NCBI RefSeq assembly: GCF_000420385.1
Contig: NZ_ATUV01000001.1
Span: 434,001 to 498,000 of the forward strand
Reading direction: 5' to 3'
DNA length: 64,000 bases
DNA from: Hippea alviniae EP5-r
GTDB lineage: Bacteria > Campylobacterota_A > Desulfurellia > Desulfurellales > Hippeaceae
The notes beneath the pieces are model-generated. The model made no database searches, had not been told where the DNA came from, and saw only the letters and a program-made list of their open reading frames with translations. The translations under genes were made by a program, and so were the position numbers. Every line of letters begins with the position of its first letter. Positions within the stretch are counted from its first letter, which is position 1. Shown piece by piece: positions 34,508 through 42,132 of this stretch.

Positions 34508-35449
34508 TTATACTGCCTCCAGCTTTTCAAGATAGCACTCTATTATTCTCATTCCTTCTTCATCGTCGAATCTGTTGCGCTTTATGACTGTTCTTACGCC
34601 CTTTAAAAGGAACTCTTCGCTCTCTATAATCCAATCGTATCCAACAACAACATCGGCAAAACTCAATAGATGTCTATTTGAAAATATCTCATCCTGTGTA
34701 TAGATGTATATTCTGTATCTTCTCCTTAGAATGTCTCTATAGATGCTGTTTGCATTCTCTTTGTCTAATTTGCTTGCAGCTATATAAAATATCCTGCTGC
34801 CAAAAGGCAGGTTGTTAATCTCTGAAAACCCTTCAAGCGGATGTTTTGCCTTTATAGGTATGACTTTTATGCTTTCATAAGACAACGACTCAAGTTGCAT
34901 ATAACAGAAAAATGGAACGACTATGATTTTGTTCTTTAATATCCTGTTTTTTAGCTCTGTTTTTAATGTTTCGAAGGGTTTAAATATAACACGCCTGTTT
35001 ATCTTTTTTTCTATCTCTCTTTTTGCAAATATGGCAACATTCTCATCCTTTTCAGTATAGATAACATTGGAAAAATCATCTTCTATCTTTGATAAAACAT
35101 CATAGACAAGTGCCATTATATCTTCTTTTGAGAAACCGTTTTTTAGGAGTGTATCAACAAAACCCTTAAACGACTCTTTGACTGTTATGTAAGATGAGAC
35201 TTGCTCTTTTGCGAATTTTGTCGTTGCTCTTGTGCCGCCCTTTTTGTTGCTTATAAGATAACCCTTTTTTGCAAGTTCTTTTTCAACCTTTTTAACTGTA
35301 AGCTCACTTACTCCATTGTCTTCTGCAATTTGACGAGCTGTGGGAAACTTTTTGTTTGGGTTTTCTATTGACTCTGTTATTAACCTTAATTTAATTATTT
35401 CGTGTTTTATAAAGAGATTGTCAATCTCTATGCCTTTCTTTTCTTTCAT
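34508..35449 (-). CDS. GntR-type transcriptional regulator
   Basis: 313 residues. The N-terminal winged helix-turn-helix (about 8-85) has the GntR pattern: FPTARQIAEDNGVSELTVKK, then VEKELAKKGYLISNKKGGTRA for the wing. The remaining 230 residues form an alpha/beta domain that I do not recognise as FCD or UTRA (pieces NVAIFAKREIEKKI, IIVVPFFCYMQL, ADVVVGYDWII); it looks like a periplasmic-binding-like sensor fold. Probably controls the hydantoinase/TRAP operon it leads, and might bind the imported compound. No Shine-Dalgarno before its ATG; see promoter entry. Confidence 0.82.
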   Translation of the reverse strand: MKEKKGIEIDNLFIKHEIIKLRLITESIENPNKKFPTARQIAEDNGVSELTVKKVEKELAKKGYLISNKKGGTRATTKFAKEQVSSYITVKESFKGFVDTLLKNGFSKEDIMALVYDVLSKIEDDFSNVIYTEKDENVAIFAKREIEKKINRRVIFKPFETLKTELKNRILKNKIIVVPFFCYMQLESLSYESIKVIPIKAKHPLEGFSEINNLPFGSRIFYIAASKLDKENANSIYRDILRRRYRIYIYTQDEIFSNRHLLSFADVVVGYDWIIESEEFLLKGVRTVIKRNRFDDEEGMRIIECYLEKLEAV

Positions 35450-35458
35450 CTTAACTCT

Positions 35459-35486
35459 ATTTTAATCTTAAGCTATTTTATGTCAA
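35459..35486 (-). promoter_or_regulatory. promoter of the gntR-hyuAB-dctPQM-sirtuin-glnS operon
   Basis: Minus strand TTGACA (35486-35481), 16-base spacer, TAAAAT (35464-35459). The ATG of the regulator begins at 35449, so transcription should start within about three bases of it, giving a leaderless or near-leaderless message. TTAAGAT occurs twice around the -10 (35471-35465 and 35454-35448). Confidence 0.6.
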
Positions 35487-35509
35487 GAAAAAAATAACAG
35501 TGAGTTTCC

Positions 35510-35528
35510 TTTTAGTTGCTTTTTAGTT
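35510..35528. repeat. 11-base-period direct repeat in divergent promoter region
   Basis: TTTTAGTT is repeated at 35510-35517 and 35521-35528 with a GCT spacer, a period of 11 bases, i.e. one helical turn. It lies just upstream of the gntR -35 box, where an activator could bind. Confidence 0.6.
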
Positions 35529-35543
35529 ATGCTTAAATAGATT

Positions 35544-35564
35544 AAGTGATAATTTTTATCATTT
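35544..35564. promoter_or_regulatory. candidate operator palindrome between gntR and the diguanylate cyclase gene
   Basis: TGATAA-TTT-TTATCA is a perfect inverted repeat (35547-35561) and extends with one mismatch to nine-base arms (AAGTGATAA / TTATCATTT with spacer, ending about 35564). AT-rich palindromes of this size are typical binding sites of GntR-family dimers. Assignment to this regulator is inference from its place in the divergent region. Confidence 0.4.
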
Positions 35565-35614
35565 GATACCATAAAAGTTCATCCTTTTATACTTTATTTA
35601 ATTGGTTTTTTGGA

Positions 35615-35620
35615 TATAAT
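35615..35620 (+). promoter_or_regulatory. -10 box of the diguanylate cyclase operon
   Basis: A consensus TATAAT lies 10 bases before the ATG at 35631, with only a weak -35 (TTTATT at 35593-35598, 16-base spacing). Predicted transcription start is about 3-4 bases before the ATG, again leaving no room for a ribosome site. Confidence 0.45.
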
Positions 35621-35630
35621 CATTTTTACG

Positions 35631-37409
35631 ATGTTTGAAAAGCTAAAAAGAAAGTCATTTAAGTTCAAGATAATGATGACATACATATTAGGGCTAATTA
35701 TCATCGGTGTGTCGGGATATGGTTATTTCATAGCGTCACAGGTAAGAAATTTAAATAATCAGGTTAAAGAGCAACGAGAAGAGTTGATAAAACAATACAA
35801 GTTTATGGCAAGAACAGCAGTTGCAGTTGCAGAGAACATGATAAATGTAATGCAAAATTTAGCCTTGGAAGGAAAGCTAAGTAAAGAACAGCTAAAAAGA
35901 ATGGCTCTTGAAAATCTCAATACGATAAAGTATGCTCCCGCGGGCTATGTCTGGTGTATAAAAGAAGATGGAACTGTACTTCTTGACCCGCCAAAGCCCG
36001 AAATAACAGGAAAAAATATCTTTAAGCTGAAATCTGCACCATATACAACTTTAGCAAAGCTTATAGAAAATTTCAGGATTCAGAACGGTGATTTTATAGA
36101 ATATGATTGGTATTATCCCGGCATAGACTCAAGAACATTTAAAAAAATTTCGTTTGTTAAAGATATACCGTCGGTTCATTGGATTATAGGTAGCGGATTT
36201 TACCTTAAAGATATAGAAGATAGAGTAAATCTATTTAAAGAGAAACAGATGCGCGAGCTTATAAAGAGCATTCTATTGAGTCTTATACCAGGTATAGCGT
36301 CTTCTTTGGTTTCTCTTCTTATCATGTATATGCTTGTTTTAAAGATGATAAAGTCTGTTGAAGATGTAGCGGATATAGCAGGAAGACTTATAGAGGACGA
36401 AGCAAGTGTAAATATGAAACTACCTGTTATAACTGATGGAGCTATAGGCAAGCTGATTCACAATACAAATCAGTATATAGAGCATCTTACGAAAATGATA
36501 AAGTTCAAAGAAGACCTTGAATTGACAGAAACGGAAGAAGAGATATTTCAACTTATAGGAGAGTTTATGGAAAGAGAGTTTAATGTTACTAAATATAGGA
36601 TATATAGTGTTAAGGACGATAAGCTGCGTTTAGTTAGAGAGAAAGGTGAACTTCAGTGTCAATGGCACGATAAGTGTATGAAAGCCGCAAAAAAAGGCAT
36701 AATAATGGAGGAAGTCTGTACCGAAAATGAAAATTACATCTGTTATCCAATTATGTCTTCACAGGAGCTAATGGGTGTTATAGAGCTCACCTTGAAGAAA
36801 GAGAATTTAAAGGTTATAAAGAAAACTCTGAATAAGTTTATCCAAAGTTCTGGGCACAACATCAACATAAAAAGATTGACAAAAACATTGAGGGAGCTTT
36901 CTCTTAAAGACAAACTCACAGATTTATACAACAGAAGATTTTTGGAAGAGACGATTCAGGCTATAACATCTGCTGCAGAAAGGCAGAACATAAAGATAGG
37001 CATAGTGATGATAGACATAGATGATTTCAAAAAGGTAAACGACACATATGGACACTCGGCAGGAGATGAAGCACTAAAAACGGTTGCAGACATCTTGAAG
37101 GCTCACTTTAGGAGAAAATCCGATTTAATTGTCAGGTATGGCGGTGAAGAGTTTCTCGTAATTGTTCAGGATGTTGAAGAGAATAGGCTTGTTGAGATGC
37201 TTAAGGAGTTTAAAGATGAAGTTTCAACAACATTAATAAAATCCAACGGTTCAACCATGAAGCTTACCGTCAGTGTGGGATATTCAATCTTTCCTGTTGA
37301 TACAAGGGATATAAAGGAAGCTATAGAGTTTGCAGATAAGGCTCTTTACAAAGCAAAAGCATCGGGCAAGAATAAGATAGTGAGATTTAAAGGGGGAAAA
37401 GATGCATAA
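35631..37409 (+). CDS. membrane diguanylate cyclase with Cache, Cys-rich GAF-like and GGDEF domains
   Basis: 592 residues from ATG 35631; an upstream TTG (35610) is rejected because it overlaps the TATAAT box. Order: membrane helix about 13-36; extracytoplasmic Cache-type domain about 40-200 (GYVWCIKEDGTVLLDPPKPE, then HWIIGSGFYLKDIE); second helix about 213-238; a linker; a GAF-like region 300-395 with four cysteines (Cys343, 349, 363, 371); and a GGDEF domain with GGEEF at 504-508 and an intact inhibitory site RKSD at 495-498. It should make cyclic di-GMP in response to an external ligand, and perhaps to redox or metal state. Overlaps the dehydrogenase gene by eight bases. Confidence 0.9.
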   Translation: MFEKLKRKSFKFKIMMTYILGLIIIGVSGYGYFIASQVRNLNNQVKEQREELIKQYKFMARTAVAVAENMINVMQNLALEGKLSKEQLKRMALENLNTIKYAPAGYVWCIKEDGTVLLDPPKPEITGKNIFKLKSAPYTTLAKLIENFRIQNGDFIEYDWYYPGIDSRTFKKISFVKDIPSVHWIIGSGFYLKDIEDRVNLFKEKQMRELIKSILLSLIPGIASSLVSLLIMYMLVLKMIKSVEDVADIAGRLIEDEASVNMKLPVITDGAIGKLIHNTNQYIEHLTKMIKFKEDLELTETEEEIFQLIGEFMEREFNVTKYRIYSVKDDKLRLVREKGELQCQWHDKCMKAAKKGIIMEEVCTENENYICYPIMSSQELMGVIELTLKKENLKVIKKTLNKFIQSSGHNINIKRLTKTLRELSLKDKLTDLYNRRFLEETIQAITSAAERQNIKIGIVMIDIDDFKKVNDTYGHSAGDEALKTVADILKAHFRRKSDLIVRYGGEEFLVIVQDVEENRLVEMLKEFKDEVSTTLIKSNGSTMKLTVSVGYSIFPVDTRDIKEAIEFADKALYKAKASGKNKIVRFKGGKDA

Positions 37410-38172
37410 AATAGCCTTAATAACGGGAGCTTCCAGTGGCATAGGCAAGGCAACAGCCGAGATACTTGCAAAAAATGGATACAATGTGATTATCTCTGCA
37501 CGAAGATTGGAAAGACTTATTGAGATTCAAAAACAGCTTGAAGAGAAGTATAAGGTTGAAGTTTTGCCTTTGAAACTTGATGTGAGAGATAGAGACGCTG
37601 TTGAAGACTATTTAAGCAATCTGCCCGATGGATGGAAAGAGATAGATGTTTTGGTGAACAACGCAGGATTAAGTAAAGGACTTGAGAAGCTTCAAGATGG
37701 CAAGATTGACAATTGGGAAGTTATGATAGATACAAACATAAAAGGTCTGCTCTATATAACACGGGCAATACTGCCGTCAATGATAAAAAGAAACAGCGGA
37801 ACGATAGTTAACATATCATCAATTGCAGGCCATGAGACATATCCCGGTGGCAATGTGTATTGTGCAACAAAATCAGCTGTTCTGCATTTATCAAAGGCTC
37901 TAAGAATGGATTTGGTTGGAACAAACATAAGGGTTGTATCAATCGACCCGGGCATGGTTGAGACAGAGTTCAGTATCGTTAGATTTGATGGCGATAAAGA
38001 GAGAGCTGCAAAGGTTTATGAAGGTATAACGCCGTTAACTGCTGAAGATGTAGCAGAAGCTGTCTGGTTTGCTATCTCAAGACCGCCACATGTGACGGTT
38101 GAAGATATGGTTCTTATGCCAACACAACAAGCAAGCGTGCTTCTTACGGTTAAAAACTATAAGAAGTTTTAA
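37402..38172 (+). CDS. short-chain dehydrogenase/reductase
   Basis: 256 residues, classical SDR: cofactor loop TGASSGIGKATAE at about 8-20, NNAGLSKG, catalytic Ser in NISSIAG and YCATKSA (Tyr/Lys). The sequence ARRLERL after strand 2 suggests NADP preference, and overall similarity is to the YdfG-type 3-hydroxy acid/serine dehydrogenases. Substrate unknown. GGGGG ribosome site inside the end of the cyclase gene; the stop overlaps the next start as TAATG. Confidence 0.9.
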   Translation: MHKIALITGASSGIGKATAEILAKNGYNVIISARRLERLIEIQKQLEEKYKVEVLPLKLDVRDRDAVEDYLSNLPDGWKEIDVLVNNAGLSKGLEKLQDGKIDNWEVMIDTNIKGLLYITRAILPSMIKRNSGTIVNISSIAGHETYPGGNVYCATKSAVLHLSKALRMDLVGTNIRVVSIDPGMVETEFSIVRFDGDKERAAKVYEGITPLTAEDVAEAVWFAISRPPHVTVEDMVLMPTQQASVLLTVKNYKKF

Positions 38173-38912
38173 TGGATTTAAAAGACAGAATCCTGCATTT
38201 GCTTGACAAATATACGGATAACAAAGGAAGGATAGATTGCACAAAAGCTATAGCTGTAGCAAAAAGGTTGAAAATAGAGCCTTCATTTGTTGGAAAAGTT
38301 GCTTCTGAGTTTGGCATCAGAATAAAGAATTGTGAATTAGGTCAATTTGGCGACAAAAGAATAGACTCTTTTGATAAAAAGACTTATGAAGCGCTAACTG
38401 TTCTTGCAGATAATAACAGAATAAAATGCGAAGATTGTTGGAAGGTGGCAAATAGATTTGGTATGGTTAAAGTTAGGTCTTCAATAAAAAACAGCAATTT
38501 AGAAGTTATCCACTGTCAGCTTAACTGTTTTAAAAACAAAGAAAGGCCAAGGTTGAAAGCTGAAGTAGAGCTGTTTTTGAAAAGTAAAGCAACAAAGGAT
38601 AAAATAAACGACAAAGCCTTCGAAATTCTCAAAGCAGTAATAGAATTAAAAAATCTAAAAGATACTTCTTGCAGACTCGGTGTCGATGAAGAAGTTATAA
38701 TAGAGACAATAGAAAAGATAAATAAAGTGTTCAACGCTGTTTGTGTAAAGATAGAAAAGGATGGAAGAGTGACTGTTTATCCTTTGGCTGGAGAGATTCT
38801 GAGTAAATTTGAGAAATTAAAAAAAGACATTGAAAACTTTTCTAAGAAAAGATTTGTTGAGATATTCTACGGCGACAGAAAATACAAAGACATAGACAAA
38901 TATTACAGTTAA
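38172..38912 (+). CDS. unrecognised protein with a duplicated Cys-containing module, possible DNA-binding regulator
   Basis: 246 residues, soluble, Lys-rich. Residues about 18-60 (GRIDCTKAIAVAKRL, GIRIKNCELGQFG) and 82-122 (NRIKCEDCWKVANRF, LEVIHCQLNCFK) are clearly two copies of one module: RI-x-C, then V-A-x-R, ending in I-x-x-C-x-L-x-x-F. Each module has helix-turn-helix-like spacing plus conserved cysteines, which might bind metal. Residues 125-246 are helical with no motif that I know. It overlaps the dehydrogenase by one base and precedes the formate dehydrogenase promoter by few bases, so a regulator of that operon is possible. Function is not established. Confidence 0.65.
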   Translation: MDLKDRILHLLDKYTDNKGRIDCTKAIAVAKRLKIEPSFVGKVASEFGIRIKNCELGQFGDKRIDSFDKKTYEALTVLADNNRIKCEDCWKVANRFGMVKVRSSIKNSNLEVIHCQLNCFKNKERPRLKAEVELFLKSKATKDKINDKAFEILKAVIELKNLKDTSCRLGVDEEVIIETIEKINKVFNAVCVKIEKDGRVTVYPLAGEILSKFEKLKKDIENFSKKRFVEIFYGDRKYKDIDKYYS

Positions 38913-38928
38913 AGTTCGCTTAAAATAC

Positions 38929-38957
38929 TTGACATAAGTTAGAAATATAATTACAAT
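38929..38957 (+). promoter_or_regulatory. sigma70-type promoter of the formate dehydrogenase operon
   Basis: TTGACA (38929-38934), 17 bases, TACAAT (38952-38957). A perfect TATAAT also lies at 38946-38951, but only 11 bases from the -35, so the TACAAT pair is preferred. Start of transcription would be near 38964, with a leader of about 27 bases carrying the GGAG site at 38981-38984. Confidence 0.6.
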
Positions 38958-38990
38958 TTTGCAAAGTTAGAATCAAAAATGGAGAAAGCA

Positions 38991-41681
38991 ATGCAGACAG
39001 AGACAGTAAAGGTAAACATAGACGGAAAAGTTTTAGAAGCAAAAAAAGGGACAAATCTTTTAAATCTCTTAAAATCAAATGGTTTTGACATACCTACGCT
39101 CTGCTATCATGAGAAACTCTCAAGAACAGGAGCCTGCAGGCTCTGTCTTGTAAAGGTTGATGGCAAACTAACAACATCCTGCACATACGAGATAGAAAAC
39201 GACATTAATGTAATAACAGAAGATGATGAAATAAGTTTTTTAAGAAAGGGTGTATTTGAGCTGTTGGAGTCTGAGATAAACGCAGATTGTGAAAACTGTC
39301 CGTTGGATGGCGTATGCGAGATTCAAAAACTTGGTGAGCGATTCGGTGTAAAATTGTCGCCAAAAGATGAAATATACGAAAAAGATGACTCGTCTGTTGT
39401 ATTAAGATACGACCCAAATAAGTGCGTAAAATGTTTTAGGTGTATAAAGGCTTGCGATGAGATTCAAGGTAAAGGAGTTTTAAACTTTGCTTACAGGGGC
39501 TCTCAATTAAGGGTTGTTGCTGGCATAGGCAGATGGGAGACAAGTGAGTGCGATGGATGTGGTGAATGTGTTCAAGCTTGCCCAACAGCCGCTTTAATGG
39601 AAAAGAGTCTCATCAATTATGGCAAAATCCTGCCTTTTGAAAAGCATAAAACAACCTGTATATACTGCGGTGTAGGATGTCAGATTGAGTTATGGGTTAA
39701 GGATAATAAGATAGTAAAGGTTGAAGGTGCCAACGAAATACCAAACAACGGTTCCTTATGCGTAAAGGGTAGATTCGGGATTGATGGAGTATTAAAAGAA
39801 GATAGATTAAAGAAACCTTTAATAAAAAAAGACGGAAGGTTTGTTGAAGTTGAGTGGGATGAAGCATTGGATTATGTTGCAGAAAGACTGATTAAAATAA
39901 AGAAAGAATACGGTGCAGATGCTATATGTGGCCTTTCGTCTGCAAAGTGCACGAACGAAGAGAATTACATATTCCAAAAATTTATGAGAGCAGCTGTAGG
40001 AACGAACAATATAGACCACTGCGCAAGATTGTGTCATGCATCAACCGTTGCAGGGCTCATGATGGCGTTTGGCAGCGGCGCAATGACTAACTCTATTGCC
40101 GAGCTTGAGCATGCAGATGTTATACTTGTAACTGGCTCAAACACAACGGAAGCCCATCCTGTAATCTCAACATTTATAAAAAGAGCTGTGAAGTTCAACA
40201 AAGCAAAGCTCATAGTTGTCGACCCAAGAAAGATAGATTTAACAAGGTATGCCACCATACACCTGCAGCAGAGAAACGGAACAGATGTGGCCTGGCTAAA
40301 CGGCATGATGAATGTAATTATCAACGAAGGATTGGAAGATAAGGAGTTTATAAGAACAAGAACGGAAGGATATGAAGAGTTCAAAAAGGTAATAGAAGAG
40401 TATACACCTGAAAGGGTTGAAAAGATAACAGGCATAAAAAAGGAAGATTTAATAGAAGCTGCAAGACTGTTTGGAAAAGCCAAAAATGCTTCTATTGTTT
40501 TTGCAATGGGAATAACTCAGCATACAACAGGCACGGACAATGTGCTTTCTATTGCCAATCTCTCTATGCTAACTGGCAATGTGGGAAAGGCTTTTGCTGG
40601 TGTCAATCCGCTTAGGGGACAGAACAATGTCCAGGGTGCTGGAGATATGGGCGCTCTTCCCAATGTGTATCCCGGCTATCAAAAAGTTGACTCACCGGAT
40701 ACCATAGAAAAGTTTGAGAAGGCGTGGAATACAAATCTACCAAACAAAGTTGGTTTGACAATCCTTGAAATGATAAACGGCATCTTGAATGGCAAAATAA
40801 AGGCTATGTTTGTTATGGGAGAAAATCCGGCTCTTTCTGACCCGAATCTCAATCATGTAAGAGAAGCCTTGAATGAAGTGGAATTTCTTGTTGTTGAAGA
40901 TATATATCTGTCTGAAACGGCAGAGTTTGCAGATGTTGTTTTACCTGCCTGCTCTTTCTTGGAAAAGGATGGAACATTTACCAATACAGAAAGAAGAATT
41001 CTACCTATAAAGAAGGTGTTTGAGCCTATTGGTGAGTCAAAACCTGACTGGCAGATAATATGCGAGCTGTCTTCAAGAATGGGCTATGATATGCATTACA
41101 ACGATGTTTCTGAAATAATGGATGAGATAGCCACTCTAACACCAATATACGCTGGCTTTAGCTACGATAGATTAAACGAAAAATTACAGTGGCCTATTCC
41201 AACAAAAGAGCATAAGGGCACTCAATTCTTACATAAAGATAAATTCACAAGGGGACTTGGTAAGTTCCACCCTGTCGATTATATAGACCCTGCAGAGTTG
41301 CCCGATGATGAGTATCCATTTATCCTATCCACAGGAAGAATACTCTATCATTACCATACAGGAACCATAAGCAGAAGGTCAGACTATTTAACAGAATACA
41401 TAAATGAACCCTATGTTGAGATAAATCCTTACGATGCAGAGAAGTGCGGTTTGAAAAATGGTGATATGGTAAGGATATCCACAAGAAGAGGCTCAATTGT
41501 CCTAAAAGCCTTATTTAGTGAAAGGGTGGTTGTAGGAAGTGTATTTATACCGTTTCACTTCAAGGAAGCAGCGGCAAATGTTTTGACAAACGATGCTTTA
41601 GACCCGATAGCCAAAATCCCAGAGTTTAAAGTTGCAGCTGCGAAATGCAAAATAGAGAAGGTGAAGAACAATGAAGCTTGA
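38991..41681 (+). CDS. fdhA: NAD(P)-type formate dehydrogenase catalytic subunit, Cys form
   Basis: Oxidises formate to CO2 at a Mo/W bis-MGD centre. 896 residues from ATG 38991, chosen because GGAG lies six bases upstream; an ATG 12 bases earlier lacks a site. Domains: N-terminal 2Fe-2S (Cys38, 49, 52, 64), NuoG-like region with CENCPLDGVC, two ferredoxin clusters (CVKCFRCIKAC, CDGCGECVQAC), CIYCGVGC for the 4Fe-4S next to the active site, then the catalytic Cys348-His349 in RLCHASTVAG in place of selenocysteine, and the C-terminal molybdopterin domain. The His normally found before the CENC cluster is absent. Confidence 0.93.
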   Translation: MQTETVKVNIDGKVLEAKKGTNLLNLLKSNGFDIPTLCYHEKLSRTGACRLCLVKVDGKLTTSCTYEIENDINVITEDDEISFLRKGVFELLESEINADCENCPLDGVCEIQKLGERFGVKLSPKDEIYEKDDSSVVLRYDPNKCVKCFRCIKACDEIQGKGVLNFAYRGSQLRVVAGIGRWETSECDGCGECVQACPTAALMEKSLINYGKILPFEKHKTTCIYCGVGCQIELWVKDNKIVKVEGANEIPNNGSLCVKGRFGIDGVLKEDRLKKPLIKKDGRFVEVEWDEALDYVAERLIKIKKEYGADAICGLSSAKCTNEENYIFQKFMRAAVGTNNIDHCARLCHASTVAGLMMAFGSGAMTNSIAELEHADVILVTGSNTTEAHPVISTFIKRAVKFNKAKLIVVDPRKIDLTRYATIHLQQRNGTDVAWLNGMMNVIINEGLEDKEFIRTRTEGYEEFKKVIEEYTPERVEKITGIKKEDLIEAARLFGKAKNASIVFAMGITQHTTGTDNVLSIANLSMLTGNVGKAFAGVNPLRGQNNVQGAGDMGALPNVYPGYQKVDSPDTIEKFEKAWNTNLPNKVGLTILEMINGILNGKIKAMFVMGENPALSDPNLNHVREALNEVEFLVVEDIYLSETAEFADVVLPACSFLEKDGTFTNTERRILPIKKVFEPIGESKPDWQIICELSSRMGYDMHYNDVSEIMDEIATLTPIYAGFSYDRLNEKLQWPIPTKEHKGTQFLHKDKFTRGLGKFHPVDYIDPAELPDDEYPFILSTGRILYHYHTGTISRRSDYLTEYINEPYVEINPYDAEKCGLKNGDMVRISTRRGSIVLKALFSERVVVGSVFIPFHFKEAAANVLTNDALDPIAKIPEFKVAAAKCKIEKVKNNEA

Positions 41682-42132
41682 AGAGATTTTAAAAAAACAT
41701 GAGTATAAAAGGGATAGATTGCTTGAGATAATTCACGACATGGATGATGAGAACATAAATTATCATGATTTAGAAAACCTTAAAATACTATCAAAACGCC
41801 TAAAAACAACGATTGCCGATATTTATGGCACTATAACATTCTACGGAATGATAAGGGATGAGAAAAGGACAAGGTTTGAGATAAATTTCTGCTCTTCAAC
41901 TGTGTGTCATATAAAAAAGGCTAAAGATTTGATTCTGTTTGTTGAGAAACTGCTTAATTGTGATGAGAATGGGATAAGCAGTGATGGGCTATTCAAGATA
42001 AACAGGGTTGAGTGCTTGGGCTTGTGTAATATAGCTCCAGCTATGACTATAAACGGCAAGGTGTATGGCAATCTAACAAAGGAGAAGATTGAAAATATAA
42101 TAAGGGAATTAAAAAATGAGAGCAATAGTTAG
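41671..42132 (+). CDS. NuoE-like 2Fe-2S subunit of formate dehydrogenase
   Basis: 153-residue thioredoxin-fold protein. The cluster cysteines are in CSSTVC (C-x4-C) and, about 40 residues later, CLGLC (C-x3-C), the usual NuoE/HoxE arrangement. Passes electrons between the FMN subunit and the catalytic subunit. Overlaps fdhA by 11 bases and the next gene by 17, so the three subunits are translated as a unit. Confidence 0.92.
   Translation: MKLEEILKKHEYKRDRLLEIIHDMDDENINYHDLENLKILSKRLKTTIADIYGTITFYGMIRDEKRTRFEINFCSSTVCHIKKAKDLILFVEKLLNCDENGISSDGLFKINRVECLGLCNIAPAMTINGKVYGNLTKEKIENIIRELKNESNS

Follow-up and report, generated by a model that had tools for sequence, protein, structure and literature searches.

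A protein with tandem cysteine modules and a degenerate ModE-type winged helix, encoded in front of a formate dehydrogenase gene in Hippea alviniae

In Hippea alviniae EP5-r, a gene for a protein of 246 residues (38172..38912, + strand; positions are those of the window, the whole stretch of 64,000 nucleotides analysed) lies between genes for a Cache-GGDEF protein (35610..37409, +) and a short-chain dehydrogenase (SDR; 37402..38172, +) on its 5' side and, on its 3' side, a formate dehydrogenase alpha-type gene (fdhA; 38979..41681, +; named by eye) with that of a NuoE-type 2Fe-2S subunit (41671..42132, +; PF01257). Its frame is open and its start ATG overlaps the stop of the SDR gene. What kind of protein is this, and does it have to do with the formate dehydrogenase next to it? 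The initial annotation, made from the letters, had noticed a duplicated module with repeated cysteines and had read it as a DNA-binding element tied to the genes on both sides. We confirm that observation, and its interpretation is partly supported.

On the single sequence, the repeat was weakly significant: 36 of 5000 shuffles scored as high, and the two copies were out of register in the best local alignment. When profiles were compared with hhalign, copy 1 matched copy 2 at 96.6% with six rows each (E 6.4e-10) and at 97.6% in a 39-row alignment (E 3.5e-12), and both copies were matched by a profile of the module (14 rows, the two copies among them). In an AlphaFold model of the N-terminal half (pLDDT 93.4, pTM 0.80), both have the same order of predicted elements, helix-strand-helix-helix-strand. 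Thus the duplication stands, and the suspected likeness to a helix-turn-helix is borne out in the predicted structure. The unit is longer than the 40 residues first assumed, about 55, including a helix ahead of the RI-x-C motif. Module 1 occupies residues 3-59 (38178..38348, +; helix, RIDC, helix, helix, strand, CELGQF) and module 2 residues 64-120 (38361..38531, +; RIKC to CQLNCF). A third module, at the element with Cys167 and Cys191, was rejected: 407 of 2000 shuffles reached its score, and the element aligns with the winged helix described below.

The repetition of the cysteines holds in full for copy 2, which has all three of the motif (Cys86, Cys115 and Cys119), but only in part for copy 1, which has two (Cys23 and Cys54) and Gln58 in the third place. 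These five are cysteine in 39/39 rows of the alignment (A9, comprising 39 of the 47 available rows); Cys89 is not conserved (1/39), and the third-cysteine place of copy 1 is taken by Q (25 rows) or V (14). Each modelled module has its first motif cysteine after strand 1 and its second after strand 2. If these strands pair, such positions would bring the two cysteines near each other.

The module seems to be uncatalogued in Pfam and NCBIfam as scanned, where no model was found for it. The window protein as a single query against Pfam, NCBIfam and PDB gave no meaningful family, and DUF16 and other weak single-sequence matches were dismissed. Two stand-alone modules (loci L006 and L007, in our own numbering) scored 24.5 and 19.6 bits against DUF7645 (PF24655), below its gathering cut-off of 27, and the window protein did not match it. 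Foldseek with the module model returned nothing at E ≤ 0.001 (best 0.74), and the best PDB sequence for the module profile, at E 0.11, was a designed protein. First among the matches listed for module 1 was the N-terminal helical domain of NuoE/FdsG/HydC (Z 6.3, 53 aligned, rmsd 2.7), with homeodomain rows within 1 of it (Z 5.8). Profile comparison with NuoE gave probabilities of 16-27%; the scores of three of the four module profiles exceeded 30 of 30 shuffles, whereas that of module 2 by itself did not. The literature search, in which subscription papers lay mostly outside the search, gave no description of the module and no occurrence of the string CQLGCF. The passages available from PMC11237541, PMC7011364, PMC2700814, PMC10102598, PMC7759655 and PMC4585668 do not describe it either.

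The initial annotation had placed DNA binding in the modules. The evident DNA-binding domain is instead C-terminal, at residues 127-233 (38550..38870, +), and was recognised by its fold as well as by a profile built from 22 intact relatives (E 2.9e-9). In the full-length model (pLDDT 88.4, pTM 0.55) it keeps a ModE-type fold: ModE chains fill the top four rows of the fold listing (2ijl, Z 11.7, 109 aligned, rmsd 3.9; 1o7l, Z 11.5, 96 aligned, rmsd 2.0), and LysR-type domains come next, at Z 10.7 and below. TIGR00637, the sequence model of ModE, does not match the window protein, and the Pfam and NCBIfam scans found no molybdate-binding (MOP-type) domain in it. Taken together, profiles and predicted models show an N-terminal half made of two uncatalogued cysteine modules and a C-terminal half made of a ModE-type winged helix.

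Where does such a protein belong? Four other genomes of the host's own family (f1) hold five relatives with 38-43% identity to the window protein, which also aligns with 20 Campylobacterota rows at 23-30% identity (alignment A8), over its full length and with both modules and the winged helix included. By sequence it is a homologue of Campylobacterota ModE (Cj1507c type), one that neither the model of ModE proper nor the search for molybdate domains recognises. The relatives tie the whole protein to the Cj1507c lineage, and it is therefore not an orphan; the statement that it has no named family holds for the module and fails for the protein. Two of the five relatives (L004 and L005) have a C-terminal ModE-type winged helix (TIGR00637, E 2.7e-19 and 5.8e-20, below the curated cut-off), and their genes overlap that of a WtpA tungstate-binding protein (TIGR03730, E 2.8e-88, scanned for L004), after which comes an ABC ATPase gene (by eye). 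The other three (L002, L003 and L009) lie behind genes that, judged by eye, encode two subunits, FdnH and FdnI, of a membrane formate dehydrogenase, with large-subunit matches upstream.

Two peptide patterns run across named genomes gave 49 loci, the five family relatives among them, from Campylobacterota (Epsilonproteobacteria) and Desulfurellaceae by title. In 33 the halves are fused, in 15 the two modules share one ORF and ModE has another, and one locus is cut by a contig end. The split loci (L077-L081, L083-L085, L088-L093 and L095) belong to Arcobacter, Poseidonibacter, Sulfurimonas and genomes allied to them. In L077 the ModE ORF follows in the same frame after one stop. In each of the other 14 it shares 17 bases (11 in L081) with the module gene, is read in the +1 frame and has an ATG of its own (GTG in L080), mostly behind an AGGA- or AGGG-like stretch (by eye). 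Because of this start codon, the halves in the overlapping loci are separate units, and a programmed frameshift between them is not favoured. Many of the 49 loci are short; within them tblastn (E ≤ 1e-8) found FdhD in 42, an FdnH-like subunit in 35 (in L071 a 37% match on the other strand) and WtpA in 11. The window FdhA was matched in 32/49 at the same threshold, and not all of these matches need be formate dehydrogenases.

In Campylobacter jejuni strain 414 (L060) the gene stands directly after fdhD, and cj1507c (modE) and cj1508c (fdhD) adjoin in C. jejuni according to the passages available from PMC11237541. From homology and from the place beside fdhD, rather than from a record of Cj1507c, we infer that L058 and L060 encode this protein. 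The same passages report that deletion of C. jejuni modE (cj1507c) abolished formate dehydrogenase activity, that the defect was complemented, and that the authors infer functions of ModE beyond repression. As given in part of PMC7011364 (from Taveirne 2009), C. jejuni ModE takes part in repressing modABC and the transport system for tungsten; it lacks a metal-binding domain but has a site for protein-protein binding.

Is the window protein then a working ModE-type transcription regulator, whose modules would sense Mo/W or redox and whose winged helix would bind DNA, possibly at the fdhA promoter? In favour of this are the predicted ModE fold, the reported repression of both transport operons by the C. 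jejuni homologue (PMC7011364, as far as available), and a promoter-like site adjoining the gene, a sigma-70-like TTGACA-17-TACAAT 5' of fdhA (38929..38957, +; consensus match only). However, such sites are no commoner than chance would have them, with 13 found against 12.7 expected in 35400-39100. The 66-base gap before fdhA also holds a repeated AAGTTAGAA alongside the TTGACA-17-TACAAT sequence (38929-38978). Also against a regulator, besides the lack of a TIGR00637 match, is the collapse of identity in the winged helix. Against the 20 Campylobacterota rows, the modules of the window copy have a mean identity of 34.9% and its winged helix one of 19.2%, compared with 39.0% and 40.7% for the two WtpA-linked relatives. 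The three other formate-dehydrogenase-linked relatives have decayed likewise (35.9% and 21.4%).

The recognition-helix region of the window copy, residues 172-187 (38685..38732, +), has a net charge of -3, as opposed to -1 to 0 in these three relatives and +2 to +4 in the 22 intact rows, and its conserved basic residues are lost. Alignment thus shows a copy that has kept the five module cysteines and has a recognition helix without its conserved basic residues. The helix charge speaks against Mo/W-dependent DNA binding by the window copy, and an acidic helix makes binding to 38913-38990 appear doubtful. As the winged-helix fold is confidently predicted and matched by the profile of intact relatives, the window copy could still bind DNA. 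In a tree, which itself warns of long branches, the window protein and the three formate-dehydrogenase-linked relatives form one clade (100/99). The window protein is 40-42% identical to them in the wing and last helix (189-236) and 21-26% in the helix-turn-helix (146-188). On this balance, we consider it unlikely that the protein works as a ModE-type regulator.

The position of the gene bears on its supposed ties to both sides. The tie to the diguanylate cyclase proved to be positional. The SDR gene was matched in 15/16 genomes of the family, and among its 11 loci elsewhere a GGDEF gene lies 5' in six, whereas the module gene follows the SDR gene in 0/11. The Cache-GGDEF and SDR genes (35610-38172 in the window) form a pair in those several family genomes (L144-L146, L148, L151 and L152), also without the module gene. 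Two SDR loci (L147 and L153) have no GGDEF gene within 1.5 and 0.9 kb, and in three (L149, L150 and L154) the flank is too short to judge. The tie to fdhA is not conserved for the type found in the window, although formate dehydrogenase genes do accompany the lineage in general. Orthologues of this type in two family genomes (G002 and G014) have different genes upstream and no module gene adjoining, which lends no support to the idea that this fdhA type needs the gene. Two genomes, G002 and G005 (88% and 81% complete), have no module match anywhere.

A match to FdhD (PF02634) was found in 0/16 genomes of the host's family (G000-G015), whether the module gene is present or not. Several of them have formate dehydrogenase genes despite no FdhD match. 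WtpA is encoded elsewhere in the host genome, with MoaD-like and MoeB-like genes near (by eye); neither the module nor ModE was found in the 7 kb around it. In another genome of the family (G007), the 6.5 kb around WtpA (L187) hold an ORF for a ModE-like winged helix without modules (profile E 6e-12). Among viral contigs, no close relative of the window protein was confirmed.

A profile search for the module, as the initial annotation had suggested, found it outside this lineage as well. With the 14-row profile at E ≤ 0.001, 43 genomes of a non-random sample of 386 were matched, namely 8/25 within the phylum (survey grouping) and 35/361 outside it, a Campylobacter-like genome (G210) being counted among the latter. 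In 27 of the 35 outside carriers the best frame has 56-91 residues, and the short frames that were read mostly end at or just after CQLGCF. We examined 37 neighbourhoods, 34 outside the phylum and 3 inside. A MobB-like P-loop protein adjoins the module or is fused to it in 11 (on the other strand in L104), and leave-one-out profiling found each of the 11 again (E 8e-10 to 9e-31). Seven of them were scanned against PF03205: three matched at E < 0.01 (L096, L044 and L029; best E 3.4e-7; L029 below the cut-off), and L110, L113 (a fragment), L104 and L128 did not. Those that match NCBIfam mobB do so below its cut-off.

A ModE winged helix adjoins the module in L124 and L126 (TIGR00637, 1.6e-21 and 2.1e-19), and in L128 the gene order is a MobA-FdhD fusion, the module, and a MobB-like-ModE fusion. 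Overall, a ModE match lies within 2 kb of the module in five of the 16 carriers that have one (fused in one of the five), FdhD within 10 kb on the same contig in 5 of the 21 carriers that have FdhD, and a PF00384 match within 6 kb in at least 8/35. FdhD occurs in 21/35 carriers as opposed to 67/326 other genomes (odds ratio 5.8, Fisher p 2e-6, a value inflated by genome relatedness) and in 17 of the 24 carrier families. The hydrogenase large subunit PF00374, taken as a control, is not enriched (15/35 against 151/326, counted by eye; short matches may be complex I). PF00384 is found in 33/35 carriers and is a common family (11/14 control genomes). FdhD is missing from 14 of the 35 carriers and a PF00384 match from two.

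These partners are not universal, and it must be taken into account that 23 of the 37 neighbourhoods have neither a MobB-like neighbour nor ModE within 2 kb. Judged by eye, RsmI-like, MoxR-like ATPase and aminotransferase genes are among those found there, as is a MetF-like fusion. In five genomes, from four families (L116, L117, L121, L129 and L130), a stand-alone module comes immediately behind an RsmI-like methyltransferase gene (by eye), and in L109, L114 and L118 one adjoins a MoxR-like ATPase gene (by eye). In L040, and in the same gene in L111, a MetF-like protein (by eye) carries a module fused at its C-terminus. The modules might have no connection with the Mo/W cofactor itself and serve several regulators and enzymes as a switch of redox or metal type (Fe-S, Zn). 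The invariance of the cysteines would suit a switch, and so would the stand-alone modules beside genes without an evident Mo/W role and the MetF-like fusion. However, the recurrent partners with assigned families are MobB-like, MobA, FdhD and ModE proteins, and FdhD is enriched in the carriers, so that we hold a switch of this general kind to be rather improbable. That the protein is a decaying paralogue with no present function, as its long branch (1.4) and the lack of a match in six of the nine genomes of the genus (its own included) might suggest, is highly improbable given an open frame, five retained cysteines and modules still 49-53% identical to those of the three formate-dehydrogenase-linked relatives (71-75% among themselves).

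We therefore favour, at about an even chance, a window protein that takes part in Mo/W-cofactor handling for formate dehydrogenase through its modules and does not act as a classical repressor. The function kept in it would lie in the modules, which would bind a metal, the cofactor or its sulfur via Cys23/Cys54 and Cys86/Cys115/Cys119 and hand it on or report it. The cofactor concerned would be the Mo/W-bis-MGD of formate dehydrogenase, and the step its supply, sensing or maturation. Sensing and maturation cannot be told apart by fusion or neighbourhood. A long C-terminal helix serves pairing in ModE and LysR proteins, and that of the window protein would keep it dimeric. In the intact relatives, the modules would signal the state of the cofactor or metal to the winged helix of ModE, replacing the metal-binding domain reportedly absent from C. 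jejuni ModE. Read most simply, the modules would act in cofactor handling and also report to a winged helix where a working one is attached, and in the window copy only the cofactor-handling role seems to be kept. The window-type fdhA orthologues without an adjoining module gene (G002 and G014) and the lack of FdhD in the host's family count against this reading, and so do the two family genomes with no module match (G002 and G005), the carriers in which FdhD or PF00384 is missing and the 23 neighbourhoods with neither MobB-like protein nor ModE near.

A wider proposal, to which we give somewhat less than an even chance, is that the module, with its C...CxLGC-F motif, is an unrecognised and widespread part of the Mo/W-bis-MGD pathway, occurring by itself, together with a P-loop partner of MobB-like type or in combination with a ModE winged helix, and that the window protein, once a repressor, has lost DNA binding and serves cofactor maturation only. 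If true, it would explain why formate dehydrogenase is lost without C. jejuni ModE, a protein known as a repressor. That published puzzle, the need for modE in formate dehydrogenase activity, would gain a concrete candidate in the two cysteine modules, and the species with separate module and ModE genes make the idea directly testable. This type of formate dehydrogenase is of interest for reducing CO2, and knowledge of how its Mo/W cofactor is loaded is incomplete. What seems new here is a decayed DNA-binding domain in a known kind of protein, ModE of the Cj1507c lineage, together with the module itself, which appears in no library scanned. A small domain that lacks a library entry, occurs outside the phylum in 35 of the 361 genomes sampled there and is linked to FdhD and MobB-like proteins would also deserve a name.

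Among known systems, the helical domain at the N-terminus of NuoE, FdsG and HydC comes up for module 1 at a middling Z, but the window protein lacks the [2Fe-2S] thioredoxin-like domain after its modules. MobB (PF03205) enters the comparison through the MobB-like P-loop proteins, the commonest partner found for the module (11/37), and the likeness belongs to the partner and not to the module. E. coli ModE (1b9m, 1o7l) has the fold of its DNA-binding domain in common with the window protein (Z 11.5 for 1o7l, over 96 aligned residues at rmsd 2.0). E. coli ModE carries molybdate-binding domains, whereas by the scans the window protein is without them and has the cysteine modules at the other end instead. 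C. jejuni ModE (Cj1507c), the reported repressor, has a basic recognition helix (L058), unlike the window copy with its acidic helix and no FdhD in its family; yet at both of its loci (L058 and L060) it has the same two modules, the same five cysteines and the same ModE winged helix.
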